A stretch of 64,000 bases of DNA from Cupriavidus neocaledonicus (GTDB lineage Bacteria > Pseudomonadota > Gammaproteobacteria > Burkholderiales > Burkholderiaceae), in the NCBI RefSeq assembly GCF_000372525.1, contig NZ_AQUR01000106.1, positions 248,001 to 312,000 of the forward strand. The letters run 5' to 3'. Each line of letters opens with the position of its first letter. The stretch's first letter is position 1. The position numbers and the translations under genes are program-made. Below, one piece after another: positions 11,307 to 50,602 of this stretch. The notes beneath the pieces are model-generated. The model saw only the letters and a program-made list of their open reading frames with translations, searched no databases and was not told where the DNA came from.

Positions 11307-12440
11307 TCAAGCCGCCTCCGCCAGCTGCGCCTGCATCTCGATCCCCATCTCCCGCAGCACCTCGCCGATCGCCGTCACCACGTTGCGCATTTCGTTGTCG
11401 TCGATCGCGCCGATGCAGCCGACGCGGAAGGTTTCCACCTGGGTCAGCTTGCCCGGATACAGGATGTAGCCGCGCTCGCGCACCTTGGCGTAGAAGGTCT
11501 TGAAGTCATAGCGCGCATCCGCCGGTGCGTGGAAGGTGACGATGATCGGGGCCTGCACCGCCGCCGGCAGGAAGGTGCGGAAGCCGAGCGCGGCCATGCC
11601 CGTTACCAGCGTGTCGCAATTGCGGCGATAGCGCGCGCCGCGCACCGGCTGGCCGCCTTCTTCCAGGAACTGGTCCAGCGCCGCGCGGAACGCCGCCACC
11701 ACGTGCGTGGGCGGGGTGAAGCGCCACTGCGTGGTCTTCTGCATGTAGACGTACTGGTCATAGAGGTCGAGCGCGAGCGAGTGGCTGTTGCCCTGGCTGG
11801 CTTCGAGCACGTCTTTCCTCACCAGCACGAAGCCCATGCCGGGCACGCCCTCGATGCACTTGCCGGTGGCGGCCACCAGCGCGTCGAAGGGCATGGTGCG
11901 GGCATCGATCTCGATCGCGCCGAACGAGCTCATGGCATCGACGATCAGGCCCTTGCCCAGGCGCTGGCACAGCAGCGCGATGTCCTGCAGCGGGTTGAGC
12001 ACGCCGGCGCCGGTCTCGCAGTGCACCTGCGCCACGTGCGTGATCGACGGGTCGCGCCGCAGCGCTTCCTCGATCAGCGCGGCGCAGGCGGGCTGGTCTT
12101 CCGGGATCGGCAGTTCCACGCTGGCGCGGCCGAGCACCTTGCAGATCTTCAGGATGCGCTGACAATAGGCGCCGTTCTGCGGCACCAGCACCTTGCCGTC
12201 GCGCGGCACCACGTTGGCGATGGCGGCTTCCACCGAGAAGGTGCCGCTGCCCTGCATCGGCACGCACACATGGGTGCCTTCGCCGTGGGCGATGCGCACC
12301 AGGTCGTCGCACAGGCTGCGCGTGATGGTGTTGAAGGCGGCGTCCCACGAGCCCCAGTCGCGCAGCATGGCTTGCTTGGTGGCGAGCGAGGTGGTCAGGG
12401 GGCCGGGGGTCAGAAGGATCGGGTCATTGCCGCGAATCAT
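11307..12440 (-). CDS. phnW: 2-aminoethylphosphonate:pyruvate aminotransferase
   Basis: The 377 aa protein is a class-V PLP aminotransferase that converts AEP and pyruvate to phosphonoacetaldehyde and alanine. The N-terminal LLTPGPL motif, the VDAMSSFG stretch with Asp168, and the PLP lysine Lys194 in [11 protein letters not shown] are as in characterised PhnW enzymes, and the length is normal. It is the last gene of a leftward operon with a complete AEP ABC transporter. Its product feeds PhnY and PhnA on the divergent operon. ATG 12440 is the only early in-frame start. Confidence 0.95.
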
Positions 12441-12477
12441 GTTGAACTCCTGATTGGGAAGGCGTGGAAAGGGAAGG

Positions 12478-14310: not shown

Positions 14311-15449
14311 GCGCATGCGTGGCGGAAGATGCGGATACGGTCAGCGGGAATGGCGAGGCGCAGCCGGTCGCCGGTGTGCGGGCGCAGCTCGTGCAGGTCA
14401 TTGAGCGAGAGGTCGGCATAGAGCGCGCCACCGTGCGCGGCGGGGACCCCAGCTGCCGCGGGCGCGGCGTCGGGCAGCCGCAGCGTCAGCCGCGAGAAGG
14501 CGCCGAGGAATTCGATCTTGTCGACGGTGGCCTCCAGCACGTTGGGGCCATGCTGTTCGATGCCGCGCACGCAGACGTCTTCGGGGCGGAAGAACACCTG
14601 CACGTCCTCGTCGGGGCAGCAGCCTGCCGGCGCGGCGCAGCGCATGCGCACGCCGCCCAGGTGCAGCTCGCCGTCGCCGCAAACGCGCGCGCCCAGCATG
14701 TTGGTCTTGCCGACGAAGTCCGCCGCGAACGGCGTGGCCGGACGCTGGTAGACCTGCGCCGGGGTGCCGACCTGCTCGATCGCGCCCTGGTTCATCACCA
14801 CGATGCGGTCCGCCATCGACAGCGCTTCTTCCTGGTCGTGTGTGACCAGGATGGTGGTGATGTTCAGCCGTTGCTGCAGCGCGCGGATCTCGCTGCGCAG
14901 CCGCACCCGCACGCGCGCGTCGAGCGCCGACAGCGGCTCGTCGAGCAGCAGCAGGCCGGGCGAGGTGGCCAGCGCGCGCGCGATCGCCACGCGCTGCTGC
15001 TGGCCGCCGGACAGTTGCGCCGGGTACTGGCTGCCGCGATCGGGCAGGCCCACCAGCGTGAGCAGTTCCGCCACGCGCGCGCGGCGCTGGTCGCGCGGCA
15101 TGCGCCGGTTGACCAGGCCGTAGGCGACGTTGTCGGCCACGGTCAGGTTGGGGAACAGCGCGTAGGACTGGAACACGATGCCGTAGTCGCGTTCCATCGG
15201 CGGCAGCTTGGAGATATCGCGCCCGCCCTGGTGGATGGTGCCGGCGTTCTGCGATTCCAGCCCCGCGATGATGCGCAGCAGCGTGGTCTTGCCGCAGCCC
15301 GACGGGCCCAGGAAGCACAGCAGCTCGCCCTGGCGCACGTCGAGGTCGATATTGTGCAGGGCGACGAAGGCGCCGCTGCTGCCGCCGAAGCGCTTGTGGA
15401 TGCCTTTCAGGCTGAGGTAGGTCTCGGCCGTGGAAGTGGAGGTCTGCAT
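14307..15449 (-). CDS. phnT2: AEP ABC transporter ATP-binding protein
   Basis: At 380 aa this is an importer ATPase of the spermidine/iron type. The Walker A motif GPSGCGKTT is near residue 50, followed by the Q-loop FQSYALFPN, signature LSGGQQQR, Walker B LLLLDEPLSALD and the H-loop THDQEEA. A C-terminal TOBE-like regulatory domain follows from about residue 245. The gene lies between the binding-protein and permease genes, overlapping the latter by four bases, so the three form one transcript. Confidence 0.92.
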   Translation of the reverse strand: MQTSTSTAETYLSLKGIHKRFGGSSGAFVALHNIDLDVRQGELLCFLGPSGCGKTTLLRIIAGLESQNAGTIHQGGRDISKLPPMERDYGIVFQSYALFPNLTVADNVAYGLVNRRMPRDQRRARVAELLTLVGLPDRGSQYPAQLSGGQQQRVAIARALATSPGLLLLDEPLSALDARVRVRLRSEIRALQQRLNITTILVTHDQEEALSMADRIVVMNQGAIEQVGTPAQVYQRPATPFAADFVGKTNMLGARVCGDGELHLGGVRMRCAAPAGCCPDEDVQVFFRPEDVCVRGIEQHGPNVLEATVDKIEFLGAFSRLTLRLPDAAPAAAGVPAAHGGALYADLSLNDLHELRPHTGDRLRLAIPADRIRIFRHACA

Positions 15450-15487
15450 GGCGTGGGGCCTGGTGTGTTCTGTTGGGGGATCCCGCC

Positions 15488-15516
15488 GCCGCCGGCCCGC
15501 AAGGCGGGCCGGCGGC
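15488..15516 (-). promoter_or_regulatory. strong intercistronic hairpin between binding-protein and ATPase genes
   Basis: A perfect 13 bp inverted repeat (arms 15488-15500 and 15504-15516, loop AAG) lies in the gap after the binding-protein stop. No T-run follows. Such hairpins commonly protect upstream mRNA or attenuate, so that the periplasmic binding protein is made in excess over the membrane subunits. Confidence 0.65.
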
Positions 15517-15542
15517 GCCGGTACAAAACGGCGCTCAGGCGC

Positions 15543-16577
15543 TCAGGGCTGCTTCTCCGACTTGCTGGCATAGCGCTTCTGCCATTCGGTCAGCACCCGC
15601 TCGCGGTTTTTGGCGATATAGCCGAAATCGTTCTTGACCAGCATCTGCTCGTAGTTGGCGGGGATGGTCTCGACCTTCCTCGCCACGCCCGGGTAGGCGA
15701 CGATGGCCCAGTCTTTGGCGAACAGCTGGTTGGCTTCCTTGCTGGCCAGCCAGTCCAGGTAGCGCTGCGCCGCCTCCATCTTCCTGGTGCCCTTGACGAT
15801 GCCGGCGGCCTCGATGTCGTAGCCCAGGCCCTCCTTGGGGAAGATCATCTCGATCGGCGCGCCCGCGGCCAGGGTCTTGTGCGCGCGCAACTCGAACGAG
15901 ATGCCGATCGGGAACTCGCCCGAGCCGGCCTGCTTGCACGGCTTGGATCCGGAATGCGTGTACTGCGCGATGTTCTCGTGCAGCGCGTCCATGTACTTCC
16001 AGCCTTCCTGCTCGCCGTAGAGCTGCAGCCACGCGGTCACGTCGAGGAAGCCGGTGCCGGACGAAGCCGGGTTGGGCATCACGATGGCGCCCTTGTAGAC
16101 CGGCTTGGCCAGGTCCTTCCAGGTTTCGGGGCGCGGCAGGTTGCGCTTCTTGGCTTCGATGGTGTTGAAGCAGATGGTCGCGCCCCAGACATCCAGGCCT
16201 ACCCAGGAAGGCGGCGTGGCCTTGTCGCTGTAGTCGCGCGTCAGCTTTTCGAAGCCCTTGGGGGTGTAGGGCACCAGCATGCCTTCCTGCTTGAGCAGTT
16301 CCAGGCTCGACGCCGCCAGCCCGGCGATCACGTCGGCCTGCGGGTTGGCTTTCTCGGCCAGCGCCTTGGCGGTGATCACGCCGGTGGAGTCGCGCACGTA
16401 TTTGAGCTCGATATCGGGCGCGACCCTGGCAAAGCCCTCGGCATAAGGCTTGAGGGTCTCGGTTTCCCACGCCGTATAGACGGTGAGGGTGGTCTTCTGC
16501 GCCAGCGCGGTGCCGGAGGCGGCTAGCGCAAACAGCGCGGCGGCGGTGCGCAGGGTGGTGGTGAAGGACGGTTGCAT
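15543..16577 (-). CDS. phnS2: AEP ABC transporter substrate-binding protein
   Basis: The 344 aa protein has a cleavable signal peptide (about residues 1-27, ending ...GTALAQ) and the fold signature of iron(III)-type binding proteins: LTVYTAWETE at the start of the mature chain and PNPASSGTGF in the ligand cleft. It would capture AEP in the periplasm for the fused permease. ATG 16577 has a strong AGGAG five bases upstream, so the longer frame beginning at 16595 is not used. It is the first gene of the leftward phn operon, divergent from phnR. Confidence 0.92.
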   Translation of the reverse strand: MQPSFTTTLRTAAALFALAASGTALAQKTTLTVYTAWETETLKPYAEGFARVAPDIELKYVRDSTGVITAKALAEKANPQADVIAGLAASSLELLKQEGMLVPYTPKGFEKLTRDYSDKATPPSWVGLDVWGATICFNTIEAKKRNLPRPETWKDLAKPVYKGAIVMPNPASSGTGFLDVTAWLQLYGEQEGWKYMDALHENIAQYTHSGSKPCKQAGSGEFPIGISFELRAHKTLAAGAPIEMIFPKEGLGYDIEAAGIVKGTRKMEAAQRYLDWLASKEANQLFAKDWAIVAYPGVARKVETIPANYEQMLVKNDFGYIAKNRERVLTEWQKRYASKSEKQP

Positions 16578-16679
16578 GGGGACTCCTTCCGGCATTGTAG
16601 GTGGAGAAATGTGTCAATGTGGTGAATCTGTTGCAATGTCACGGGGCGTGCTGCACAACATCGAATCACCGTAGAACCC

Positions 16680-16690
16680 TTGTGCTACAA
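16680..16690. promoter_or_regulatory. TTGT-N3-ACAA motif, possible second PhnR site
   Basis: The sequence TTGTGCTACAA resembles the TTGT/ACAA half-sites of the better palindrome at 16759-16770, in the divergent control region. One mismatched example alone is weak evidence. Confidence 0.3.
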
Positions 16691-16758
16691 CACTTGCAAG
16701 ACATGTGCCCGGCTTCTGGCGCTTGCTTCGTCACCCATCCGACTGCGCCGATGTCTTG

Positions 16759-16770
16759 ATTGTTGACAAT
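16759..16770. promoter_or_regulatory. operator-like palindrome ATTGT-TG-ACAAT overlapping the phnR -35 box
   Basis: The 12 bp palindrome has perfect 5 bp arms and covers the -35 hexamer of the phnR promoter. FCD-type GntR regulators usually bind short AT-rich palindromes of this kind, so autorepression by PhnR is the simplest reading. Confidence 0.55.
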
Positions 16771-16791
16771 ATACAAACCGCTTGCTTTAAT
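16763..16791 (+). promoter_or_regulatory. sigma70 promoter of phnR
   Basis: TTGACA (16763-16768) matches the -35 consensus fully, and TTTAAT (16786-16791) matches five of six -10 bases, with an ideal 17 bp spacer. Transcription would start near 16798, about 44 bases before the phnR ATG. Confidence 0.7.
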
Positions 16792-16841
16792 GGCAACAAG
16801 GATTTTCGATACTGCTGAATCCGTCACAAACGGGAGTGTTC

Positions 16842-18895
<2,054 letters not shown>

Positions 18896-18957
18896 CCGCC
18901 TGGATAGCAGCGGCGGTCGGAGCCGCCGCCTGAACACGCATTGACCGGAGGAGACTC

Positions 18958-20421
18958 ATGAACGCCCCCCAATTTCCCGCTGGCGCCGTCAGCCCCCATT
19001 TCCGCGCCGAGGCGCTGCGCATCGACGGCCAGAAGATCGTGCGCGAGCGCGTGATCGAAGTGCGCAACCCGTTCGACGGATCGCTGGTGGGCACCGTGCC
19101 CAAGGCCACGCTGGAAGACGTGCGCCGCGCCTTCGAGGTGGGCCAGGCCTACCGCGCCACGCTGACCCGTTACGAGCGCGCCGCCATCCTCAACCGCGCC
19201 GCGGCGCTGCTGCGCGAGCGCACCGAGGAGGCATCGGACCTGATCACGCTCGAATCCGGCCTGTCCAAGAAGGATTCGCTGTACGAGATCGGCCGCGTCG
19301 CCGACGTGCTCGGCTTTGCCGCCACCGAGGCGCTGCGCGACGATGGCCAGCTGTTCTCGTGCGACCTGACGCCGCACGGCAAGAAGCGTCGCGTGATGAC
19401 CCAGCGCGAGCCGCTGATGGGCGTGATCAGCGCCATCACGCCGTTCAACCACCCGATGAACCAGGTCGCGCACAAGGTCGCGCCGTCGATCGCCACCAAC
19501 AACCGCATGGTGCTCAAGCCGTCGGAAAAGGTGCCGCTGTCGGCGTTCTACCTGGCCGACCTGCTGTACGAAGCCGGCCTGCCGCCGCAGATGTTCCAGG
19601 TGGTCACCGGCGACCCGCGCGAGATCGCCGACGAGCTGATCACGCACCCGGCGGTGGACCTGGTGACGTTTACCGGTGGCGTCGCGATCGGCAAGTACAT
19701 TGCCGGCAAGGCCGGCTACAAGCGCGTGGTGCTGGAGCTGGGCGGCAACGACCCGCTGATCGTGCTCGACGACGCCGACCTCGACCGTGCCTCCGACCTC
19801 GCGGTGCAGGGCTCGTACAAGAACTCCGGCCAGCGCTGCACCGCGGTCAAGCGCATGCTGGTGCACCAGGCCGTGGCGGCGCGCTTTACCGAACTGGTGG
19901 TGGAGAAGACCCGCGCCTGGAAGTACGGCGACCCGATGGACCGTGGGGTCGACATGGGCACCGTCATCGACGAGCAGGCCGCGCAGCTGTTCGAGGCCCG
20001 CGTCAACGAGGCGGTGGCGCAGGGGGCGCGGCTGCTGGTCGGCAACCAGCGCAGCGGCGCCAGCTACGCGCCCACGGTGCTCGACCGCGTCGACCCGTCG
20101 ATGACGGTGGTGCGCGAGGAGACCTTCGGCCCGGTCTCGCCCATCATCACCTTCCGCGACGTGGACGATGCCATCCGCATCTCCAACGGCACCGCGTTCG
20201 GGCTGTCGTCGGGGGTCTGCACCAACAATATCGAGGCCTTCACCAGGATCGCCAATTCGCTGCATGTGGGTACCGTCAACCTGTGGGAAGTGCCTGGCTA
20301 CCGCATCGAGCTGACGCCGTTCGGCGGGATCAAGGATTCGGGGCTGGGCTACAAGGAGGGGGTGCAGGAGGCGGCGAAGAGCTTTACCAACCTGAAGACG
20401 ATTACGTTGCCGTGGGGGTGA
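18958..20421 (+). CDS. phnY: phosphonoacetaldehyde dehydrogenase
   Basis: The 487 aa aldehyde dehydrogenase oxidises phosphonoacetaldehyde to phosphonoacetate with NAD. Motifs include the cofactor-site segment [20 protein letters not shown] with the general-base glutamate, and the catalytic cysteine in [11 protein letters not shown] near residue 298. The GAGGAG ribosome site precedes ATG 18958. Together with PhnW and PhnA this makes the oxidative AEP pathway, as opposed to the PhnX hydrolysis route, for which no gene is seen here. Confidence 0.95.
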
Positions 20422-24044: not shown

Positions 24045-24173
24045 CATCCATAGCCCGCCTGTGCGTCGGCCCGAGCCGGCCCGCCCGCGGACGATGAGAG
24101 CGAAGAGCGTTGCGCCAAGCCGTTTGGTGCGCGGCAGCACTTCGCCATGACCAATGCTAATCAGGTAGAAGAC

Positions 24174-25715
24174 ATGAAGAATCTAGGTATCGGGGTTCGC
24201 CTCGGCATCGGTTTTGGGGTGGTATTGCTGCTTGCGGCGCTGATGACGGCATTCGGCATGCTGCGCCTGCAGCAGGTGGCCGAGCGCACGCACGCGATGA
24301 TGCAGCAGCCGCTGACCAAGGAGCGGCTGGTCAGCGACTGGTACCGCCTCATGCACACCAGCGTGCGCCGCACCACCGCGGTGGCGCGCAGCGCCGACCC
24401 GTCGCTGGGCCAGTTCTTTGCCGCCGAGACCAAGGCCTCGATCGAAGGCATTGCCCAGCTGCGCGACAAGCTGCAGCCGATGCTCAGCTCCGAGCAGGAA
24501 AAGGCCGCGTTCCAGAAGATCCTGAGCGTGCGCGACCCGTACAACAACGGGCGCGACAAGATCACGAAGCTCAAGCAGGAAGGGCTGACCGAGGAAGCCA
24601 ACCAGGTGCTGGAGAAAGAGTTCGTGCCCGCCGGCGACGCCTACCTGGCCGAGATCCAGAAGCTGCTCGACATCCAGCGCGCCAGCATCGACGCCACCGC
24701 GCGCGAAATCAACGGCATCTACGTCAACGCGCGCAACAGCCTGATCGGGCTGGGCGTGGTGGTGCTCGGGATCGGCATTGCGTTCGCGTTCTGGCTCACC
24801 ATCGGCATCACGCGTCCGCTGCATCGCGCCGTCGCGGTGGCGCGCACCGTGGCCTCGGGCGACCTGACCAGCCGCATCGACGTCGACAGCCGCGACGAAA
24901 CCGGCCAGCTGCTGCAGGCATTGGCCGACATGAACGCCAATATCCTGCGCATCGTGCGCCAGGTGCGCGCCGGCACCGAATCGATCGTGTCGGGCACCAG
25001 CCAGATCGCCGCCGGCAACACCGACCTGTCGCAGCGCACCGAGGAACAGGCCTCGTCGCTGCAGCAGACCGCGGCCAGCATGGAGGAGCTGACCAGCATC
25101 GTGCGCCAGAACGCCGACAACGCGCGCCAGGCCAGCACGCTCGCGGTCAACGCCTCGGATATCGCCGCCAAGGGCGGCGAAGTCGCGGGCAAGGTCGCCG
25201 AGACCATGGAAGAGATCAACGGCGCGTCGAAGAAGGTGGTCGACATCATCGCCGTGATCGAGGGCATTGCGTTCCAGACCAATATCCTGGCGCTGAATGC
25301 CGCGGTGGAAGCCGCGCGCGCCGGCGAGCAGGGCCGTGGCTTCGCGGTGGTGGCCGGCGAAGTGCGCACGCTGGCGCAGCGCAGCGCGACCGCGGCCAAG
25401 GAGATCAAGGCGCTGATCGGCGATTCGGTCGAGCGCGTCGAAAAGGGCTCGATGCTGGTGACGCAGTCGGGCCAGACCATGGAAGAGATCGTCGCCGCGG
25501 TCAGGCGCGTGACCGACATCATGGGCGAGATCAGCGCCGCGTCGGCCGAGCAGAGCTCGGGCATCGAGCAGGTGAACCAGGCGGTGACACAGATGGATAC
25601 GGTGACGCAGCAGAACGCCGCGCTGGTGGAAGAGGCGGCCGCGGCGGCGGGTTCGCTCGAGGAGCAGGCGCAGCGGCTGAAGGCGGCGGTGGCGACGTTC
25701 AGGCTGGCGGCGTAG
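24174..25715 (+). CDS. methyl-accepting chemotaxis protein
   Basis: The 513 aa receptor has a first membrane segment (about residues 7-29), a periplasmic four-helix sensor domain (about 30-180, MCP_4HB type), a second membrane segment (about 183-207), a HAMP domain ([15 protein letters not shown] onwards) and a cytoplasmic signalling domain. The conserved hairpin tip [20 protein letters not shown] lies near residue 365. There is no terminal CheR pentapeptide. The ligand is unknown. I prefer ATG 24174, with AGGT upstream and the standard MKNLxIGxRL start, over ATG 24147, which has no ribosome site. Confidence 0.93.
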
Positions 25716-25812: not shown

Positions 25813-26634
25813 CTACGTGTTCTGCTCGCCGGCGCGGCTCCAGCTCATGGCCCACCCATACAGCCCGATGCATCCCGCGACCATCACGGTCGGTCCCAGT
25901 ACGAAGGACAGCAACGGCATCATCAGCAACGAACAGCAGGACAGGACGTACAGGTGCAGCGCCAGCTGCAACGGCACGGCGACCACCACGAATGCCAGTG
26001 TCAGCAGCGTCAACGACACCTTCTTCCACCACGCGAAGCGGAAGATGTAATAGGTCAGCGCGTGCGCCCACGGCATCAGCCAGAGCAGGCCGCACGAGGT
26101 CTTGAGGCCGTTGTCCAGGTAGCCGCTCGCGCTATACGGAAAACTGTCCGGTGCCACCGCGAAGAACAGCAGCGCGGTGGCCTGCACGAACACCGCGAAC
26201 AGCACGAAATAGCGCAGCGGCAGGTAATGGTCGCGCAGGCGCAACGCCAGCAGCGCGGCGGCCAGCGTGCCGAGCAGCGTCAGCCACCAGGTCGGCGCGT
26301 CGGGCACGGCGGCGGAGACGTTGATGTAGGGAAGCGGCAGGTTGAGCCAGCCCAGCGGTACGGCGCGCTCGGCCACGGTGCCGTCCAGCCTCAGCTTGTC
26401 GATCCAGAACGCCAGCACGGCCGCCCATGCCGCGCTCAGCTGCGCGCGCAGCATCCACTCTGCCGCGTTGAAGGCGGCCGCGACCAGCGGGATCGCGGCC
26501 AGCGTGGGCAGGTCCAATATCAGTCGCTGCAGCGACCGTTGCCGGGCGTGGTACAGCGTCGCCAGGCCGAGTGCATCGCCCTTGTCGCGTGCGGCGGCCG
26601 GCTCGGCAGTGGGGTCGCTGGCCTGGCGCGGCAT
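25813..26634 (-). CDS. polytopic membrane protein of polysaccharide locus
   Basis: The 273 aa protein has a short polar N-terminus (about 40 residues) followed by six or so hydrophobic segments. I do not recognise a family. It starts four bases after the stop of the YaiO-like gene, so it belongs to the same operon and is its last gene. Small polytopic proteins at the ends of synthase-dependent polysaccharide operons often modify or help export the polymer; that role is inferred from position only. Confidence 0.72.
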   Translation of the reverse strand: MPRQASDPTAEPAAARDKGDALGLATLYHARQRSLQRLILDLPTLAAIPLVAAAFNAAEWMLRAQLSAAWAAVLAFWIDKLRLDGTVAERAVPLGWLNLPLPYINVSAAVPDAPTWWLTLLGTLAAALLALRLRDHYLPLRYFVLFAVFVQATALLFFAVAPDSFPYSASGYLDNGLKTSCGLLWLMPWAHALTYYIFRFAWWKKVSLTLLTLAFVVVAVPLQLALHLYVLSCCSLLMMPLLSFVLGPTVMVAGCIGLYGWAMSWSRAGEQNT

Positions 26635-26637
26635 AGA

Positions 26638-27477
26638 TCAGAACTCGATAAAGAAGCCGATCTCGGCCTGCTTGCGCCGGTACGAAGGGTTGTCGTAATA
26701 GATGGCGCGCAAATTCATGCCGTAGCGTTTGTTGAACCACTTGCGCCAGTTGAGGGTGACCTCGTGGCTGGTGAAGTCGCTCAGCAGCGACTGGGCGCCG
26801 GTGAGCTGGTAGGCTTCGCGGCCGCCGTCGTACTTGAGCGTGATGTACTGGTCTTTGTCGCGACCGTAGGTAATGGCTGCCACGCCGCGGCTGGAGCGGA
26901 CGTTGCCCGGGTCGCTGCGGTTGAGCCGCGCGCCGAACTGCACGATCCACGGCGCGTCGAAATAGTAGGTCAGGCCGAGCAGCAGGGTCTTGTCGGTATA
27001 GATTTCCCTGGCGCGGTAGTAGGTGAAGCCGGCGCTGGCCACCAGGTTCCTTTTCTCTAGAAACTTGCGGAACAGCATGCCGTCGACACGGAACTCGGGC
27101 AGGAAAAAACCGCCCGTGCTGGTGCCGGCGCTCAGGAAGCCGTACCAGTCCGCGTTGAAGTCGCGGGTGTAGCCCAGGCCGAAGAAGGTGCCCTGGTCGC
27201 CAAAGTGGTGCTGGTGGCTGATTTCGCCGGTGACGTAGTCCTTGTCCGACAGGTGCATGCCGCCGCGCAGATACTGGTCGTTCCAGCTGGCGTTGTTGCC
27301 GCTCAGGTTGGCATGGCCCAGGCCGCCTTCGATGAACCCCGTCATCAACGGGGCGAAGGTCCGGGGTGCGGTCGCCTCGGCCTGCGCGCGGGCGTGCGGG
27401 CAAGCCGCCAGTGCCAGCATGCCCAGCAGGCAGGCGAGGGACTGTGCACCGAAGTGACTGGCGTCCGGTAGCTTCAC
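26638..27477 (-). CDS. YaiO-like outer-membrane beta-barrel protein
   Basis: The 279 aa protein has a signal peptide (about residues 1-34, ending ...PHARA) and a chain of alternating aromatic and polar strands that ends in phenylalanine (GFFIEF), typical of an outer-membrane barrel of 10-14 strands. It matches the YaiO family, which in E. coli lies beside a glycosyltransferase (YaiP) and a deacetylase (YaiS), as here. The start is GTG 27477, with a perfect AGGAGG just upstream; the open frame extends further but without a ribosome site. A role as exopolysaccharide export pore is likely. Confidence 0.82.
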   Translation of the reverse strand: MKLPDASHFGAQSLACLLGMLALAACPHARAQAEATAPRTFAPLMTGFIEGGLGHANLSGNNASWNDQYLRGGMHLSDKDYVTGEISHQHHFGDQGTFFGLGYTRDFNADWYGFLSAGTSTGGFFLPEFRVDGMLFRKFLEKRNLVASAGFTYYRAREIYTDKTLLLGLTYYFDAPWIVQFGARLNRSDPGNVRSSRGVAAITYGRDKDQYITLKYDGGREAYQLTGAQSLLSDFTSHEVTLNWRKWFNKRYGMNLRAIYYDNPSYRRKQAEIGFFIEF

Positions 27478-27686
27478 GTTGCCTCCTGTCGTGCCTGTGG
27501 GTAATGCCGGGGGGCGGTCGTCGGCGACCCGCCCATGCAGCAGCAGCGTTTGCACCATACACCGGACCGGGGCGATGCGTCGATCCGCCATGCCTCGTCA
27601 TTTTGGTGGTGTGTTGCATCTCTGAAATGCTGCGCGGGCGCGCGGGCCTGTTGCTTTGCTGCCCCGCGCCCCCTGCGCTAGCCGTG

Positions 27687-28697
27687 CTAGCGGCAGCGCA
27701 GGCTCGCCGGCGGCGGCGCGAGCGCCTGCGCCGGCGTGAGCCTGGACTCGAAGGCCAGAAACAGCGCCTCTTCCAGGACGTTCCAGTGCCGGCCGTGGCG
27801 GAATTGGTTCGCGCGTACGCGCCAGCAGGTGATGGCGTCGGCGTCGCCCATCTTGTCGGCCACCAGCGCCACCAGGCCCCAAGGGAAGTCCACCTCGGAC
27901 ATCTGCAGCCAGGCGAAGCGATGCGTGGTCATCCACGCCCGGTAGGCGCTGGCATGCGGTCGGCCAGGCGCCTGGATGTCGGCCAGGATGGGGAAGATCT
28001 GCGCCACTGCATCGGGATAGAACTCGCTGCGCTCGCGCGGCTGGGTGCTCACCAGGAAGCCGTTCTTGCGCCAGAACACGCGCAGGATGGCCTGGTCGAG
28101 CTGTTCGGCCTGGCGTGCCCAGGCCAGGGCGCCGCTGCTGTCGCCCAGCCGCGCGCGGTAGCGGCTGACCGCCTTGAACGCGCTGGAGACTTCCACGTTG
28201 TCCATCAGCAGCGCCACCGGCAGCGTGGACGAGATCTGATAGACGCCGGTGCGGCGGTCACGCAGCGTGTCGAGGTAGCGGCTGGCCTTGTCGAAGCTGG
28301 CCTGCCACGCGGGCGGCATGCCCCTGGCAGGGGCGGTGCGAACCAGCAATTCCATCCAGGCCGCCATCAGCGCGTCGTCGGCATCGGCGGGCTGGCAGGC
28401 GGCAAAACGTTGCCCCTTGAGGCAATAGCGGTCGAAGCGGCCGTCGCCGTGCTGGCGTGGCAGTTGCCAGGCGATCCAGTTGCCGGCCGCGGTCGTGGTG
28501 GCCATGCCGGCATCCTGCGCCGCCAGCAGGGCCTTGGCCGCAAAATACGGGTCGATCGAGTCGCCGCCGAAATACGTCGTGATCGCGCCGTCGGCCCGTT
28601 GGTAGCCCGGCAGCGCGAGCTCGGCGGCGGCTGCATGGGCGGGCAGGAGCGTGGCAAGCGCCAGCATCAGGGTGAACAGGGCGTTTATGGCGGGCAT
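27687..28697 (-). CDS. exported glycosidase-like protein (alpha/alpha toroid suspected)
   Basis: The 336 aa protein has a signal peptide (about residues 1-24). The mature part holds repeated helical segments with aromatic and acidic motifs, notably GDGRFDRYCLKG and ADADDALMAAWMELL near residue 105. The latter resembles the acidic motif of six-hairpin glycosidases such as BcsZ-type family 8 enzymes. Polysaccharide synthase operons often encode such a periplasmic hydrolase. I cannot name the family with confidence. ATG 28697 overlaps the end of the bactofilin-like gene by 13 bases. Confidence 0.7.
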   Translation of the reverse strand: MPAINALFTLMLALATLLPAHAAAAELALPGYQRADGAITTYFGGDSIDPYFAAKALLAAQDAGMATTTAAGNWIAWQLPRQHGDGRFDRYCLKGQRFAACQPADADDALMAAWMELLVRTAPARGMPPAWQASFDKASRYLDTLRDRRTGVYQISSTLPVALLMDNVEVSSAFKAVSRYRARLGDSSGALAWARQAEQLDQAILRVFWRKNGFLVSTQPRERSEFYPDAVAQIFPILADIQAPGRPHASAYRAWMTTHRFAWLQMSEVDFPWGLVALVADKMGDADAITCWRVRANQFRHGRHWNVLEEALFLAFESRLTPAQALAPPPASLRCR

Positions 28698-29788
28698 GGC
28701 TGGTCCTTGGCCGTGGCAGCTTCGCAATCCGATTCCACGCGGCCGAGCTCGAGCGCCGACGCGGCACCGTGGACCGTGGCGCCGACGCGCGCCAGCAGCA
28801 CCGGCGCCACCACGGTGGTGTGCCGCTGCGGCGCGCCGATGACGCAGAACGGCGCCAGCCTGACCTCGCGTTCGGCGGCGACCGGGCCGCCGACGGCGCA
28901 GGCGCGCTCCATCGAGATGACAGCCCCGGCAATCAGGGCGCCATCGATGACGGCGCCGGCTTCCAGGCGGATGCTGCCGCTCGCCTTGACGCTGCCGGCA
29001 ATGTGGGCGCCGCTGCCCAGCCACAGGTTGCCATGGACCACCAGGTCGCCGCGGTACAGCGCGTTGGCGGGGAAGGTGAAGTCGTGCATCACCAGCCAGC
29101 GGCCGTCCCTCGCTTCGGCGGATGCGATCTCGCCCGCCGGCGATCGTGCGCACGGACCGGCCGCAGTGCCATGGATCGCGCCGGGACGCTTGATGCCGGC
29201 GCGTCCGAAACGGACCACGGGCGCGCTCACCGACGCGAAGCGGCAGCCGTCCTCCAGCCGGATCGCGTGCAGCGCGCCCACCGGGCCGAGCAGGCGGCAG
29301 CGTTCGGCCGCGTAAACATGGCCGGCGTGGGCCCAGCGCTCCAGCTCGCTGCCTGCGCCCAGGATGATGACGCCGTCGGAAAGCAGTCCCTGCAGGCGAT
29401 TGCGCTGCCCGGTGCGGATGCTGCGCCGGCCGTAGATGTCGCGGGAAAAGGCATAATCGCTGGGCAGCAGCACGGCTTCGGCGCCCACGATGGTGCGGGC
29501 GCACAGCCCGGCTGCCGCCTCGGCCGGGGTCGGCACGAAGGTGCCGTGCACGCGGACCAGCGGCTCCAGCGAAAGCTCTGCCGCCGCCATGCCCGCTTGC
29601 CCGGGGCGCGCCGGCTGCGCAGCCAGTTGCGCGCGCAAGCCCGCCGCCACGGCGCCGACATCCAGGGTGTGTTCGCCATCGATGGGCAGCGGGCCGATAT
29701 CGCGTTGCCGGCGCCATTCCAGCAGTGCCGGCGCCAGCGGCAGCGCCAGCACCAGCAAGGTCAGCAACGCAAGCGTCAGGGGCCACAC
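28685..29788 (-). CDS. membrane-anchored bactofilin/beta-helix-like protein
   Basis: The 367 aa protein begins with one hydrophobic helix (about residues 2-23), then a loop region. From about residue 85 it has short repeats of hydrophobic and glycine residues (GDLVVHGNLWLGSGAHIAG, GAVIDGALIAGAVI) typical of bactofilin or left-handed beta-helix folds. The start is probably GTG 29788, where a G-run lies six bases upstream; TTG 29794, overlapping the synthase stop, is the alternative. It sits between the synthase and glycosidase-like genes and may scaffold the complex. Function is not known. Confidence 0.72.
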   Translation of the reverse strand: MWPLTLALLTLLVLALPLAPALLEWRRQRDIGPLPIDGEHTLDVGAVAAGLRAQLAAQPARPGQAGMAAAELSLEPLVRVHGTFVPTPAEAAAGLCARTIVGAEAVLLPSDYAFSRDIYGRRSIRTGQRNRLQGLLSDGVIILGAGSELERWAHAGHVYAAERCRLLGPVGALHAIRLEDGCRFASVSAPVVRFGRAGIKRPGAIHGTAAGPCARSPAGEIASAEARDGRWLVMHDFTFPANALYRGDLVVHGNLWLGSGAHIAGSVKASGSIRLEAGAVIDGALIAGAVISMERACAVGGPVAAEREVRLAPFCVIGAPQRHTTVVAPVLLARVGATVHGAASALELGRVESDCEAATAKDQPCPP

Positions 29789-29790
29789 GT

Positions 29791-31359
29791 TCAACCCCCC
29801 CGCCGGTAGCGTGTGGTCTTGTCCCAGCGCATCTCGCGGCGCAGCAGCGGGTCCAGCAGGACCTGGTCGGCGATGGCCCGCGACACGGCCAGCACGCTTA
29901 CCAGGAAGCCGAAGTAATTCAACGGCAGCAGGCAGATGCGGGCGCGGCTGCCGTCCAGGTACACCGCGGCGGCGATCTCGAAGAACGCGGCAAAATTGCC
30001 GAGCGTGCCGTAAGACATCAGTGCGAACAGGATCAGGGTCTCGCCCAGCAGCGGCAGTCCGCCGGCATAGAACAGGAGGATGGCCAGCAGCCAGCCGGCC
30101 AGCATCACCGGCGCCATCATGTAGATGCCCAGCAGCGCCAGGCCGTCGACCCGCTCGAGCAGGTCGTGGTCGCGGCAGCGCGCCATGCTCGCGGCGTGCC
30201 GGTAGAGCGCCTGGTTGTGACCCTTGGTCCAGCGCTTGATCTGCCGTACGCGCACGGCCCAGCTCTCGGGCACTTCTTCATAGCATTCGGACCAGTTCTG
30301 GTAGACGGTCTTCCAGTTGGCCAGCAGCAGGCGGTAGGTCAGGTCGGTGTCTTCGGCCAGCACATCGTCGTGCCAGCCACCGGCGGCGCGCAGCGCGCGC
30401 ATGCGGATGCCGCCCACGGTGCCGCCATACTGCGGCACCAGGTCCAGGTTCATGCGCGCCTGCTGGTCGACCTGGTAGCCGCCGGAGCGCTCGAGGTCCA
30501 GCAGGCGCGTCAGCAGGTTGCTGCCGAGGTTCATCGGCACCACGCGCCCCATGGTGGCGCCCACTTCGGGATCGAAGAAAGGCGCCACCAGTTGCTTGAG
30601 CAAGCCGATCGGCGGCAGGTAGTCGGCATCGAAGACGACGATGATTTCGCTGGTCACGGTCTCGCACGCATCCTTCAGCGCGGCGGCCTTGCCAGGCTTG
30701 CCGCCGCTGCGGTGGAACGGCGTGATGCGTCCCGGGTGCTGCGCCACCACCGCGTCGATGATCTCGCGGGTGCGGTCGGTGGAGCGGTCGTTGACCGGCA
30801 TGATGGTGAGGCGCTCGCTGGGGTAGTCGGCGCGCAGCAGGCATGCCAGCGAGCCGGCGATCACGGCTTCTTCGTTGTGCGCGGCGACCATCACCGTCAG
30901 CATCGGCCAGTCGGCGATATCGATGTCGAGGTAAGGGTGGCGTTGCTTGCCAAACAGGCGGTTCAGCGTGAACACGTAGTGCCGCACGGCATAGAACACC
31001 ACCAGGACCACGATCAGCGCCAGCAGGGTGGTCAGCAGCGCGACCAGGGCGTGCCCGCCAGCCTGCGCCGGTGGCTGGCCCGCCGGGGCCGGCGGCCAGG
31101 TGCGCGCGGGCGGGGCGGCTGGCTCCAGCGTATCGGCGGACATCCCATGGGACGACATGGTGTCGACGTAGGCCATCGCCAGCGCCACGGATTGCGCGCC
31201 GGGGTCGTACAAATTGTCCGCCATGGCCCCGGTCATGGCGCCGGGGGTGGTCTGCGCGGCGCCGGCCTGAGCGATCAGGGGATCAGCCTGCAGCGGCACG
31301 GAGGCGCTGCATGCAAGCCATCCGCACAGCAGTGGCAAGTAGCGACAGGCCAGGCGCAT
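29791..31359 (-). CDS. processive family-2 glycosyltransferase (polysaccharide synthase)
   Basis: The 522 aa protein carries the full set of processive GT2 motifs: Asp191 in VNDRSTD, the DXD at 244-246 (FDADY), the catalytic Asp337 in AEDTDL and the QXXRW motif at 373-377. One membrane helix precedes the domain (about 103-125) and four or so follow it, as in PgaC and BcsA-type synthases. Unusually, the first 27 residues look like a signal peptide and are followed by about 75 Pro/Ala-rich residues that should be periplasmic. It would polymerise a UDP-sugar, perhaps the amino sugar made by WecB in the same operon. Confidence 0.9.
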   Translation of the reverse strand: MRLACRYLPLLCGWLACSASVPLQADPLIAQAGAAQTTPGAMTGAMADNLYDPGAQSVALAMAYVDTMSSHGMSADTLEPAAPPARTWPPAPAGQPPAQAGGHALVALLTTLLALIVVLVVFYAVRHYVFTLNRLFGKQRHPYLDIDIADWPMLTVMVAAHNEEAVIAGSLACLLRADYPSERLTIMPVNDRSTDRTREIIDAVVAQHPGRITPFHRSGGKPGKAAALKDACETVTSEIIVVFDADYLPPIGLLKQLVAPFFDPEVGATMGRVVPMNLGSNLLTRLLDLERSGGYQVDQQARMNLDLVPQYGGTVGGIRMRALRAAGGWHDDVLAEDTDLTYRLLLANWKTVYQNWSECYEEVPESWAVRVRQIKRWTKGHNQALYRHAASMARCRDHDLLERVDGLALLGIYMMAPVMLAGWLLAILLFYAGGLPLLGETLILFALMSYGTLGNFAAFFEIAAAVYLDGSRARICLLPLNYFGFLVSVLAVSRAIADQVLLDPLLRREMRWDKTTRYRRGG

Positions 31360-31460
31360 GACGACGACCCTTCAGTCTATGGTTAACACGCGGCGCGGCG
31401 CGCCTGTCGCTGCGTCGTGATGCGCGCGGGCAGGCGGGCCGTGCCTTGCGGTCCGGCGCA

Positions 31461-33299
31461 TCAGAGCTTGCTGGCGACAAACGTCAGCGAGGTCCCGCCC
31501 AGCGAAGTCACGATCCAGTTGTTGGCATCGAAAGTCACGAGCCCGAGGCCGCCGGTGACCACCGGCTGGATAAAGCCCGTGCGCGGCAGCAGCCAGGTCA
31601 TGTCGGTCAGGTCGGTCGGATGCGAGGCCTGGAACACCCAGGTAAGGCCGTTGTCGGTGGCCTGCCAGCTGGTCTGGTCGCGCCGCTGCGCGAACCTGGA
31701 GAGCGTATCCATGGTGTACCAGCTGAACTGCCCGGCCAGCGCCAGCGTCGTGGCGCGGTTGAACAGCGCGCTCAGTACAGTCGGATAATCCTGGGCGCCG
31801 AGGGGGTGCATGTAGATCAGCCGGCTGGTGCGGTTCTTGACCACGAAGTCGATCAGTTGCCGGTACCAGGCGGTGACGCTGCCCGCGGGCACGTTGAACT
31901 CCTCGAACTCCTCGAACGTCGCATACTGGCCGAACGGCATTACCGGGAAGGCGCGGATGTTCTGGTTGCTCAGCACGCCGTTGCGGTAGCTGCGCGTCGG
32001 CGCCATGCCGGTGTGGCCAAGGAAGTAGTAGCCGGTATTGCCGTTGGCTTCCAGCCAGTCGACCGACCATGGCGGCGTGTTCCCTTCGGGCGCGGCATAT
32101 TCGACGGCCGGCCTGCCTGTCACCGCTTCGACGCTTTGCTTGTTGAGCTCCAGATACTGCTGGAACGTGGCCTGGTTGCCTTCACTGGCGTTGGCGCCCC
32201 AGTAGTCGTGGATCCATCCGCCATGGCTGCCGATCTTGTGGCCTTTGGATTGCAGAAACAGCAGCAGCTGCTGGGCCGTGGTGTTCTGCGACAGCTTGAT
32301 GCCGAGTCCATCGCCAAAGGTGACCTGGTCCGGTCCCGCGGTCACGGAAACGGAGAACGGGCCGTTGTTGAAGACGCCCCAGTTCTTGAGCTTGAGCGCG
32401 GGCGCGATCTGGTCGCCGGCGCAGAAATGCATGTTCAGCACCAGCCCGGCGCGTCCCTTGGGCTGTGCCGACAGCCGCGGCAGCTTCATCAGGTTGACGG
32501 CAAAGTAGCGCAGGAAGCCGTGCATCAGCATGCCGTCGGTCTGGCCCTTGAGGTACGACAGCGGCAGGTTGACGAACAGCACGCTGCCCGTGCCGAAGTT
32601 GCGCAGGCCGGCCACCAGCCCGAAGTTCGGCGAGGTCAGCAGTGCCGAGCCGGAATAGCTGCCTTGGGTGACAAAGCTGGGATAGGTCAAAAAGCCATAG
32701 ACATAGCCCGAGATGCCCTCGACCGGATCGGTGGTGCTGGCGGTGGACCACCGCATCGACTTGCCCGGCGGCACCTGGATGCTCCGCAGCGTGCTGCCCA
32801 GGCCCGTGACCGGCCCCAGGCCGATCATATTGCCGAGCAGGGAGTCATAAAGCACGTAGTCGACGCCGGCAAGGTTGCTGAGCCGGCTTTTTTGCGGCGC
32901 GTAGAAGCCCGTGGTGGTCAGCGCGCCGAAGTCATATACCAGCATGACCTTGCCGCCGAGGCTGGTGTAGCTCTCCAGCGCGGCGATCAGCGCGTCGCTG
33001 GCATTCACATGCACCTGGTCGGGCAGGATTACGCCGGGGAACTGTGCCGGGGTGATGCCCTGCAGCAACTGGCTGTCGCTGATGACGGTGAGCTTCAGCC
33101 CCTCTTCCAGCGCTGCGTCCTGCCACGCCGAGACGCGCGCATCGGGCAGCGCCATGCCGTCTGGCACCAGCAGCGCGATCTGGTTGGTGGCGGCGCGCGC
33201 CGCGGTGGGCATGGCCAGGGACAGCGCCGCCAATACCATCAGCAGCATGAGGCGGCCATTTCGCAGCCGTTGCAGCAACGCGTACAGTGGGTTGGACAT
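31461..33299 (-). CDS. exported polysaccharide deacetylase-like protein
   Basis: The 612 aa protein has a signal peptide (about residues 1-37), an N-terminal Rossmann-like domain (about 40-275) and a C-terminal NodB-like domain. In the latter, Asp296 in HFCAGDQ, His359 and His364 in GSHGGWIHDY, and YAAPEGN at 401-407 stand where deacetylase motifs 1 to 3 are expected. The usual TFDDG is not present and the histidines are five apart, so it is a divergent or possibly inactive member. YaiS of E. coli and PgaB are functional analogues. It probably N-deacetylates the nascent polymer in the periplasm. Confidence 0.8.
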   Translation of the reverse strand: MSNPLYALLQRLRNGRLMLLMVLAALSLAMPTAARAATNQIALLVPDGMALPDARVSAWQDAALEEGLKLTVISDSQLLQGITPAQFPGVILPDQVHVNASDALIAALESYTSLGGKVMLVYDFGALTTTGFYAPQKSRLSNLAGVDYVLYDSLLGNMIGLGPVTGLGSTLRSIQVPPGKSMRWSTASTTDPVEGISGYVYGFLTYPSFVTQGSYSGSALLTSPNFGLVAGLRNFGTGSVLFVNLPLSYLKGQTDGMLMHGFLRYFAVNLMKLPRLSAQPKGRAGLVLNMHFCAGDQIAPALKLKNWGVFNNGPFSVSVTAGPDQVTFGDGLGIKLSQNTTAQQLLLFLQSKGHKIGSHGGWIHDYWGANASEGNQATFQQYLELNKQSVEAVTGRPAVEYAAPEGNTPPWSVDWLEANGNTGYYFLGHTGMAPTRSYRNGVLSNQNIRAFPVMPFGQYATFEEFEEFNVPAGSVTAWYRQLIDFVVKNRTSRLIYMHPLGAQDYPTVLSALFNRATTLALAGQFSWYTMDTLSRFAQRRDQTSWQATDNGLTWVFQASHPTDLTDMTWLLPRTGFIQPVVTGGLGLVTFDANNWIVTSLGGTSLTFVASKL

Positions 33300-33411
33300 G
33301 GTCTTCTCCGAGCGCGAGGTATGTAGAAGCGGTCTTGCCGGGCGCAGCCGCGCGGTTGCGGCAGGGCACGTCAGGCGATGCGGCGGCGAGGCGCCACGGC
33401 ACTGCCGGGGA

Positions 33412-33744
33412 TCAGTCCGGCTCGGCGTCGGGCGCCGGGGCCAGCGTGTAGGACCCGGTCCGCACGCGGGGGCCCGCCACGGCGTTGCTCAGGACCTTCT
33501 TCGTCAGCTTGTCCTTCAGCGCCCTGTTCTTGCTCGGCGCATGGGCTTCGAACGTGAAATCAAGCTGGCTGCCATGCTGGTAGCCCGCCAGCCCGCCGGG
33601 ATTCGCCGGGCTGGCCGGCAGGTAGAGCGGGCTGCCGGCCACGGCCGCCGCAGCTTCCTCGGTCAGCGCGGCCCGGGCCGCCGGCAAAGCCAGCGCAGCG
33701 GCGAGGGCGACGACTGCGGCCATTCCAATACGTGAGCGCTTCAT
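33412..33744 (-). CDS. small exported protein of polysaccharide locus
   Basis: The 110 aa protein has a clear signal peptide (KRSRIG, then a hydrophobic core, ending ALPAARA near residue 25). The short mature part is rich in Gly, Ala and Pro and has a basic patch (SKNRALKDKLTKKVL). AGGAG lies seven bases before ATG 33744. It sits between wecB and the deacetylase-like gene with gaps of about 110 bp on each side. I do not recognise it; a periplasmic accessory role in the same system is the simplest guess. Confidence 0.7.
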   Translation of the reverse strand: MKRSRIGMAAVVALAAALALPAARAALTEEAAAAVAGSPLYLPASPANPGGLAGYQHGSQLDFTFEAHAPSKNRALKDKLTKKVLSNAVAGPRVRTGSYTLAPAPDAEPD

Positions 33745-33850
33745 TGCGTTGCTCCTGCGGTAAGCAACCAGGCCGGCCGCGGCCGAAGCGTGGCTGCGCG
33801 AATTGTGCGTGTAGAAGGGGTTGTGCCGGTCGGCGCGGACCTGGTCTGCG

Positions 33851-35026
33851 CTACGGGCTGGCCACGCCCGCGGCAAGGCCGACGCGCGTGCCGCTGTCCT
33901 GCGCACCGCCCTGCAGCGCAAGCACGATGCGTTCGCTGGCCCGGCCATCGCCAAAGGGGTTGTGTGCGCGCGACATGCGTGCATACTCGTCGGCGTCATT
34001 GAGCAACTGCTCGGCCGCGGCAATCAGGCGCTCCGGGTCCGAGCCGACCAGCCGCGCCGTGCCCGCGGCGACGGCTTCGGGACGCTCGGTGGTCTCGCGT
34101 GTTACCAGCACAGGCTTGCCCAGTGCGGGCGCCTCTTCCTGGATGCCGCCGGAATCCGTGACGATCAGATGCGCGCGCGACATCAGGTACACAAAAGGCA
34201 GGTACTCCTGTGGCTCGATCAGGTGGATGTCCGGATGCCCGCTCAGGATCGCCTGCACGGGCGCACGCACACGCGGGTTCAGGTGCACCGGATAGACGAA
34301 CTGCAGGTCGGGATTGCGGTCCGCGAGCGTTCTCAGCGCCGTGAACAGGCGCTCGAACGGCGCGCCGAAATTTTCGCGCCGGTGTCCGGTCACCAGCACC
34401 AGCCGGCGCGAGTCGTCCAGGAAGGGGTAATTTCCCGTCAGTTCCCGGTGCAGCACGATGTCGCTGTCCAGCCGGGCCTTGACCTGCAGCAGTGCGTCGA
34501 TACCGGTGTTGCCGGTCAGGCTGACCCGGATCGGATCGACGCCCTCCCGCAGCAGCGTCTCCTGTGCCTGCTGCGTCGGCGCGAAGTGCCAGGCGGCCAT
34601 CACGTCGGTGACGCGGCGGTTCATCTCCTCGGGCCAGGGGGCGCTCAGGTTGCCGGTGCGCAGCCCCGCCTCGACGTGTCCGACCGCAACATTCCGGTAA
34701 AACGCGGCGAGCGTGGCTGCCAGCGTGGTGGTGGTGTCGCCATGGACCAGCACCGCATCAGGCAGGTATTGCTCGAGCACCGCATGCACGCCGGAGAGCA
34801 CGCGCGTGGTGATGTCGCTCAGGCTTTGGCCCTGGCTGATGACGTTGAGGTCGAAATCCGGTTCGATCTCGAACAGCCGCAACACCTGGTCGAGCATCTC
34901 GCGATGCTGGCCAGTCACGCAGACCCGCAGCTCGAAGCTGTCGGAGGCCTTCAGGCGGTGGATCAGCGGCGCCATCTTGATGGCTTCCGGCCGGGTTCCG
35001 AATACAGCCAGCACTTTCTTCGGCAT
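33851..35026 (-). CDS. wecB: UDP-N-acetylglucosamine 2-epimerase (non-hydrolysing)
   Basis: The 391 aa protein interconverts UDP-GlcNAc and UDP-ManNAc in the cytoplasm. Family hallmarks are [14 protein letters not shown] at the N-terminus, [38 protein letters not shown] and [14 protein letters not shown] 35026 is preceded by AAAGAGA. It is the first gene of the leftward polysaccharide operon and suggests that ManNAc, or a sugar derived from it, is part of the polymer. No wecC dehydrogenase is in the window. Confidence 0.94.
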
Positions 35027-35867: not shown

Positions 35868-38105
<2,238 letters not shown>

Positions 38106-47308: not shown

Positions 47309-47404
47309 GGGTTGTCTCCCCGTTGCTGGTGTACGGTGTGCCGCGCGCCGCCATGCGGATGTGGCGACGCGGGAAAAAAGTGGGCCGGATCGCTCAGGCC
47401 GCGG

Positions 47405-48952: not shown

Positions 48953-48960
48953 GGTCGATC

Positions 48961-49425: not shown

Positions 49426-49455
49426 AGGACTGGGGGCTCCATCTGAGGCGCCGGT

Positions 49456-50578: not shown

Positions 50579-50602
50579 TCGTTCAAGCCAGATACCCGTT
50601 GA

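Follow-up and report, generated by a model that had tools for sequence, protein, structure and literature searches.

Introduction

In Listeria monocytogenes, the Pss system builds a beta-1,4-linked polymer of N-acetylmannosamine (ManNAc) with galactose side groups and includes a deacetylase, PssB, and an (alpha/alpha)6 glycosidase, PssZ, which cuts the polymer (PMC6307706, PMC7479077). In Escherichia coli, a ManNAc polymer has been proposed as the product of the Nfr/NGR system (NfrBA-YbcH together with WecB) and, without chemical proof there, for the receptor of phage N4, according to the available text of both reports (PMC8669469, PMC8669472). One of these reports describes a cyclic di-GMP (c-di-GMP)-binding MshEN domain in NfrB, tetratricopeptide repeats (TPRs) in NfrA, a wecB gene beside the synthase where the genome has no other wecB, and a WecB reaction that is reversible (PMC8669469). 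In this study, we describe a run of eight open reading frames (ORFs), g8 to g1, on the minus strand at positions 25813-35026 of a 64,000-nt stretch of the Cupriavidus neocaledonicus genome (contig NZ_AQUR01000106.1, positions 248,001 to 312,000; hereafter the window). They encode WecB (g8), a small exported protein (g7), a deacetylase-like protein (g6), a processive family 2 glycosyltransferase (GT2, g5), a bactofilin-like protein (g4), a glycosidase-like protein (g3), a YaiO-family barrel (g2) and a polytopic membrane protein (g1). With a probability of about two in three, we read this cluster as a distinct type of synthase-dependent exopolysaccharide system that would be fed by UDP-ManNAc.

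The window cluster appears to share the functional classes of the Listeria system, with a UDP-ManNAc source in addition. Listeria is Gram-positive, so its system has no outer-membrane pore, and its synthase is set beside the window GT2 by description alone. We know of no WecB, bactofilin-like or g1 part in the Listeria system. With Nfr/NGR the cluster has in common a GT2, an outer-membrane barrel and WecB, and the linkage of synthase and WecB is a feature that the window cluster also displays. It differs in that the window GT2 carries no MshEN domain and the window YaiO protein no TPR (Pfam), and neither BLASTP nor profile searches matched the cluster to NfrA or YbcH. The E. coli yaiS-yaiP-yaiX-yaiO unit likewise combines a YaiO-family pore with a GT2, and its first yaiX fragment matches the g4 profile weakly (E 8e-5, 24 sequences searched). 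In contrast, YaiP aligns with the window GT2 over only 95 residues (32% identity), YaiS does not match g6, no wecB is annotated within the unit, and yaiX is broken by IS2 in K-12. The poly-N-acetylglucosamine (PNAG; PgaABCD) and cellulose (Bcs) systems have the same classes of parts, namely a processive GT2, periplasmic editing enzymes and an outer-membrane pore. Of their proteins other than the synthases, PgaA, PgaB, PgaD, BcsB and BcsZ were compared with the cluster, and neither BLASTP nor profile searches gave a significant match (E <= 0.1 for Pga); hhalign gave 0.4% for the g6 family with PgaB.

The cluster most likely works in the manner of Listeria Pss and E. coli Nfr and is built from other parts. 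A preliminary description of this DNA had presented the mix of WecB, bactofilin-like and YaiO parts as matching no named system that it knew. No matching named system was found, which upholds that view of the mix; the feeding of a GT2 with ManNAc precursors has precedents (PMC8669469, PMC8669472, PMC6307706). A search of the open-access PubMed Central literature, outside which most subscription journals lie, returned no description of the gene set, one paper naming yaiO in a list of mutants and no more, and the Bcam1330-1341 (bep) genes of Burkholderia cenocepacia are still a candidate name. The name becA-R of B. pseudomallei was considered and rejected, since that polysaccharide consists of glucose, galactose, rhamnose and mannose and the accessible text on it mentions no YaiO, bactofilin, polymer-forming protein or deacetylase. 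Shared by several phyla and carried by a conjugative plasmid and a few E. coli chromosomes, this gene set very likely makes a surface polymer of which our search found no description. Surface polymers bear on biofilms and phage entry, and the cluster offers an independent route to test the export of a ManNAc polymer by Gram-negative bacteria. The repertoire of components in synthase-dependent systems also gains a bactofilin-like protein as a constant partner and, in g1, a membrane protein that so far has no known fold.

Conservation of the gene set

A close relative of the GT2 (E below 1e-150) is present in 7 of 300 Burkholderiales genomes, the window's own among them, and a distant one (28-32% identity) in three. 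Of the six close loci outside the window, five carry WecB, g4, g3, YaiO and g1 in differing orders; the remaining one, which lies on a 5.4-kb contig, has WecB, g3 and g4. The deacetylase is found at three of the six. At the three distant loci, tblastn matched the GT2 alone. In a scan of GTDB genomes we used the best 80 of at least 497 confirmed GT2 relatives, so that the taxonomic spread given here is a lower bound. These loci (numbered with the prefix L) were divided at a gap in identity, a split of our own choosing, into 73 near (>=43%) and 7 far (29-34%) loci, and a gene was counted as present if it occurred anywhere within a locus of up to ~21 kb; g7 was left out of these counts as its profile had absorbed deacetylases. 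The near loci come from several phyla, with the reservation that some labels of metagenome-assembled genomes (L076, Corynebacterium; L090, Legionellaceae) may be binning errors. All 73 carry g4, and g1 is present in 70, YaiO in 68, WecB in 61, g3 in 46 and g6 in 44. When only near loci that reach 20.6 kb are considered, 45 in all, the corresponding numbers are 45 (g4), 45 (g1), 44 (YaiO), 43 (WecB), 35 (g3) and 34 (g6). The seven far loci include no g4, g1, YaiO or g3, and WecB and g6 occur at one each.

At 70 of the 73 near loci the GT2 gene has g4 directly behind it on its own strand, and beyond this the gene order is shuffled into many arrangements, which argues that the linkage is not mere inheritance. 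Some near loci form near-identical pairs (e.g., L034/L075 and L036/L038), so the 73 are not independent. The association was also followed in the reverse direction: the g1 profile matched 6 of the 300 Burkholderiales genomes, all within the seven that bear the GT2 and at the locus itself, the seventh locus being the one on the 5.4-kb contig. The g4 profile matched all seven, one of them weakly at a second site as well, and two genomes that lack the GT2. In these two, proteins resembling the beta-helix region of g4 (E about 1e-31) lie at L109:9423-10484 and L110:9014-9907. Clustering of the flanking genes recovered a Crp/FNR-like regulator (named by eye) in 11 loci and no additional gene common to all clusters. 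The families co-occur far beyond chance and the gene set forms a real system, as the preliminary description had expected of a search of gene neighborhoods: the genes stand together in several phyla, on a plasmid, in E. coli and, in the case of the GT2 and WecB, in a genus sample of 60 Cupriavidus genomes.

Association with WecB

The cluster WecB scores 494.3 bits against TIGR00236 (cut-off 210.15) and is the sole WecB match in the whole genome from which the window comes. In the genus sample, 17 genomes have the GT2 and 33 have WecB; WecB is present in 17/17 genomes with the GT2 and in 16/43 without it (Fisher p 4e-6). At all 20 GT2 loci of this sample, one of which is broken into two pieces, WecB lies no more than 3 kb from the GT2. 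In the sample of 300 Burkholderiales genomes, WecB occurs in 140, including all seven with the GT2. A tree built by a quick method from 68 cluster and 29 background WecB sequences (the background taken from 28 Burkholderiales loci with high scores plus a single distant locus) requires five label changes by parsimony, three of them forced by supported branches, and in this tree the cluster WecBs are not one lineage. That the linkage is kept although they are not one lineage points to a need for UDP-ManNAc that is tied to the synthase. Taken at the level of gene content, the tie of the GT2 cluster to WecB, and hence presumably to UDP-ManNAc, is strong.

Relationship of the GT2 to known synthases

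The GT2 scores 102 bits against PF13641 (cut-off 27), and its motifs D191, D244-A-D246, E336-D337 and Q373..R376-W377 are invariant across seven aligned orthologues. Hydrophobic segments at residues 104-122, 412-430, 442-460 and 475-493 flank the catalytic domain on both sides. In NCBIfam it matches PgaC_IcaA best (E 2.7e-31), yet it falls far below the cut-offs of the PgaC equivalog TIGR03937 (108.9 bits versus 422.3) and the cellulose synthase (CelA) equivalog (45.6 bits versus 699.1). By BLASTP the window GT2 is 26% identical to PgaC and 24% to BcsA, aligns with YaiP over the short stretch given above, and has no match to NfrB at E <= 1. A profile of the cluster GT2s ranks the E. coli enzymes PgaC (3e-59), BcsA (1e-32), NfrB (3.8e-29) and YaiP (5e-29), and PgaC is the closest of the four compared. 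In a tree, 78 close rows, including the window and the plasmid copy described below, form a single clade (support 96/95) to which neither the four references nor the seven far loci belong; where exactly the references attach is unsure, given their very long branches. Judged by these comparisons, the GT2 is neither PgaC, BcsA, NfrB nor YaiP. The earlier expectation that the synthase and the barrel belong to no known cellulose or PNAG locus thus agrees with scores, profiles and tree in the case of the GT2, which falls outside the synthases of the PNAG, cellulose, Nfr and Yai systems, and with YaiO family membership, not a tree, in the case of the barrel.

Bactofilin-like protein, membrane protein and barrel

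The window g4 scores 15.9 bits against PF04519, below the cut-off of 27.9, and all 17 aligned g4 relatives match this family at E <= 0.1 (best 1.3e-7), the plasmid relative reaching 31 bits, above the cut-off. Bactofilins are known as cytoplasmic proteins. The g4 protein consists of one N-terminal membrane helix followed by a beta-helix-type domain, and lysine and arginine are richer after the helix than before it in 74 of 75 homologues (near-identical loci counted apart; 79 profile hits, of which 4 without a clear helix were set aside). By the positive-inside rule, these flank charges place the bactofilin-like domain probably in the cytoplasm.

Neither Pfam nor NCBIfam matched the window g1, and a profile search of PDB sequences found no match for its family. 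Its structure model is confident (predicted local distance difference test, pLDDT, 91.3), and its best Foldseek match (E 0.32) is not convincing; these sequence and model searches thus found no known family or fold for g1. On contig C76 of the window genome there is a broken second g1 remnant (L108:10024-10497), 85% identical over 118 residues and with two internal stops, which may be a decayed second copy or a transferred fragment; the 20-kb stretch around it has no matches to other cluster genes.

The YaiO barrel scores 116.3 bits against PF19413 (cut-off 23.9) and 204.2 against TIGR04390 (cut-off 32), with no further Pfam domain such as a TPR, and is likely the export pore. YaiO occurs in 14 of the 300 Burkholderiales genomes, six of the seven with the GT2 and eight others. 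Five of these eight were inspected. At four (L111, L112, L113 and L115) a different, distant GT2 lies ~1 kb from YaiO (profile E 1e-34 to 1e-43) and the 20-kb stretch has no profile matches to g1, g4 or WecB, possibly another YaiO-dependent system; at the fifth (L114) nearby GT2 matches are partial only. From the reverse profile searches and the inspected loci, YaiO is a shared pore type and g1 looks private to the system.

Putative chain-editing proteins

The window g6 scores 19.2 bits against PF01522, below the cut-off of 23.1, and 15 of 15 aligned relatives match this family at E <= 0.1 (best 1.5e-6). The similarity to Polysacc_deac_1 lies in the C-terminal part, and a GH42M-type domain was matched in 6 of the 15 relatives. 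Residues N289, H291, H359 and H364 are invariant in 15 sequences, and in the N-x-H-x-D motif at N289, the window g6 and eight Cupriavidus- or Burkholderia-type ORFs have Cys for Asp. Of the Asp-His-His metal site of such deacetylases, the two His are invariant and the Asp is Cys in the window lineage. A regular expression for the deacetylase motif was imperfect, with some deacetylases overlooked and some spurious matches.

The small exported protein g7, which matched no Pfam or NCBIfam family, is homologous to an insertion inside the deacetylases of related clusters. A phmmer search of 55 deacetylase ORFs from other loci gave a best E of 4e-10, and tblastn placed g7 within the deacetylase of L015 at E 1e-7. 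The deacetylases that bear the insertion, those of L015, L069, L072, L073, L074, L079 and L094, belong to Burkholderia-type loci and to two further loci, and the insertion sits near residue 185-190 (window numbering). At three Cupriavidus loci, as in the window, g7 is a separate exported protein upstream of the deacetylase, and by homology the two arrangements are a natural domain split. Thus g7 stands as a gene, as first described, and its description is refined by this match.

Window g3 has no Pfam or NCBIfam match, a PDB sequence-profile search returned nothing useful, and 15 g3 relatives gave stray Pfam matches at most (best Trehalase, E 0.006, in one member). Its AlphaFold2 model is an (alpha/alpha)6 barrel (pLDDT 92.3). 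In VIA-align the methylmannose polysaccharide hydrolase MmpH comes nearest to it (Z 21.3), with many barrel glycosidases scoring nearly as high. Foldseek also matched it to the GH126 glycosidase PssZ (E 1.6e-4, template modelling score 0.35), a likeness of fold only. Structure prediction bears out the glycosidase-like label given to g3 from its sequence, and for g1 gives the confident model without a convincing match noted above. The preliminary description counted the deacetylase and glycosidase among the components of the system; both are present in the window, and both are absent from 6 of the 45 long-flank loci, so chain editing appears to be optional.

Plasmid and Escherichia copies

A search of 72,556 plasmids returned two records at E <= 1e-40, a 1.6-Mb Cupriavidus replicon and a conjugative IncI1/B/O plasmid of E. 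fergusonii. The latter carries a row of bactofilin-like protein, WecB, YaiO, g1, an acyltransferase, g3 and GT2, that is, six cluster families plus the acyltransferase; the annotated start of its bactofilin leaves out an in-frame upstream hydrophobic stretch. E. coli NCTC8623 has the same seven genes on its chromosome, with an integrase, tRNA-Phe and fimbrial genes no more than ~8 kb away. Among 5426 complete E. coli genomes, megablast found the Escherichia cluster in three, on the chromosome each time, the surroundings having been inspected for NCTC8623. No deacetylase match was found in the plasmid cluster or in the inspected NCTC8623 stretch. Genes for a phosphoadenosine phosphosulfate (PAPS)-reductase and for ParB/IbrB-like, DsbA-like and PapI-like regulator proteins lie near both Escherichia copies (L107:9094-27738, L102:4176-15117).

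Discussion

The interpretation of this cluster as an amino-sugar exopolysaccharide export locus, put forward in the preliminary description, has gained support from the co-occurrence of its genes and from the phylogeny of its GT2. In the mechanism that we propose, WecB, whose family assignment is firm, would convert UDP-GlcNAc (GlcNAc, N-acetylglucosamine) to UDP-ManNAc, and the inner-membrane GT2, which has the motifs of such an enzyme, would polymerize and extrude a ManNAc-containing chain. The g1 protein and the membrane-anchored g4 are, by linkage, constant partners of the synthase, and g4, probably cytoplasmic, may scaffold or cluster synthases. The chain would exit through the YaiO barrel, and the periplasmic g6, perhaps with its detached domain g7, and g3 may edit or trim it, as family and fold suggest. 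A further possibility, which we put forward tentatively, is that the synthase includes the membrane-anchored bactofilin as an integral cytoplasmic subunit, which would polymerize and, together with g1, array ManNAc synthases in rows. That such rows would spin chains in parallel, by analogy with cellulose terminal complexes, is an equally speculative part of this idea. If true, the system would represent a class of its own among secretion machines, new and able to move between phyla.

Several points weigh against a ManNAc-fed export system of this kind. The polymer itself has not yet been seen. A GlcNAc or mixed polymer is possible because the nearest E. coli GT2, PgaC, is a GlcNAc polymerase. 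WecB is missing from 12 of the 73 near loci, ten of them shorter than 20.6 kb and two long (L050 and L080), and the three label changes that supported branches force on the WecB tree can be read as losses or as gains, so they do not give a number of recruitments. The activity of g6 is uncertain because Cys replaces the Asp seen in most aligned relatives. The membrane side of g4 is predicted from charge, and its profile also matches the two genomes without the GT2. YaiO is not specific, since 8 of the 14 genomes that have it lack this GT2, and the window and E. coli YaiO proteins belong to the same Pfam family, yet neither BLASTP nor their own profiles match them at E <= 1.

Among the alternatives, it is doubtful that the GT2 makes a GlcNAc or mixed chain while WecB only sets the balance of UDP-GlcNAc and UDP-ManNAc or supplies other glycans of the cell surface. 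The kinship with PgaC, the two long-flank loci without WecB (out of 45) and the reversibility of the WecB reaction (PMC8669469) would fit such a role. The position of WecB beside the GT2 at all 20 Cupriavidus loci and the lack of another WecB match in the window genome speak against it, as does a linkage that is kept though the cluster WecBs are not one lineage and so suggests a need tied to the synthase. Membership of the Nfr/NGR type (NfrA-NfrB-YbcH with WecB) is unlikely. The logic of GT2, outer-membrane barrel and WecB is shared, including a wecB beside the synthase (PMC8669469), but the profile match to NfrB is remote, weaker than that to PgaC, and is accompanied by no BLASTP match; furthermore, nothing in the cluster matches NfrA or YbcH and the GT2 lacks MshEN.

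We regard as very unlikely a divergent pga or bcs locus that has acquired an incidental wecB. The best NCBIfam match of the GT2 and its rank among the four E. coli enzymes both lead to PgaC, and against this the GT2 scores far below the PgaC and cellulose synthase cut-offs, the close GT2 rows form a clade apart from PgaC and BcsA (96/95, with very long reference branches), and the searches with PgaA, PgaB, PgaD, BcsB and BcsZ gave no significant match. Finally, the genes could be neighbors by chance or shared inheritance only, for which the near-identical pairs among the 73 loci might be cited. This is scarcely credible in view of the many gene orders, the several phyla, the plasmid and E. coli chromosome copies, the reverse test with g1, and the absence of g1, g4 and YaiO from all seven distant GT2 loci. 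A system fed by UDP-ManNAc and distinct in type remains our preferred reading.

Locus organization and neighboring genes

The coordinates, families, alignments of homologues and, for g3, the predicted fold bear out the eight leftward genes and the classes first given to them (Table 1). The GT2 and g4 genes overlap by 4 nt and g4 and g3 by 13 nt, YaiO and g1 are separated by 3 nt, and the remaining four gaps measure 95-112 nt, so that the spacing across g8-g1 is operon-like. Promoter and terminator scans of the locus performed no better than chance level, and Pfam and NCBIfam scans found no c-di-GMP-binding domain among the window proteins.

Table 1. Genes of the cluster and its immediate neighbors, in window coordinates.
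Feature	Position	Strand	Basis
g8, WecB, non-hydrolysing UDP-GlcNAc 2-epimerase	33851..35026	-	TIGR00236
g7, small exported protein, 110 aa, signal-like N-terminus	33412..33744	-	homology to deacetylase insertion
g6, exported deacetylase-like protein, 612 aa	31461..33299	-	PF01522-like C-terminal part, below cut-off in window protein
g5, GT2 processive glycosyltransferase, 522 aa	29791..31359	-	PF13641, catalytic motifs
g4, membrane-anchored bactofilin-like protein, 369 aa	28685..29794	-	PF04519-like, below cut-off in window protein
g3, exported (alpha/alpha)6-barrel glycosidase-like protein, 336 aa	27687..28697	-	predicted fold
g2, YaiO-family outer-membrane beta-barrel	26638..27591	-	PF19413, TIGR04390
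g1, polytopic membrane protein, 273 aa	25813..26634	-	strand pair at residues 85-106
Flanking gene, methyl-accepting chemotaxis protein	24147-25715	+	
Flanking gene, monomeric isocitrate dehydrogenase	35868-38105	+	

Elsewhere in the window, positions 11307-20421 encode a class V aminotransferase, ATP-binding cassette (ABC) transporter parts, a type I phosphodiesterase-family protein and an aldehyde dehydrogenase, which we take to resemble a locus for aminophosphonate breakdown. Positions 45704-61909 encode an AMP-ligase, aldehyde dehydrogenases, an enoyl-CoA hydratase and PaaA/C-type and ferredoxin-reductase proteins, presumably similar to adjoining benzoyl-CoA and phenylacetyl-CoA ring-cleavage pathways.

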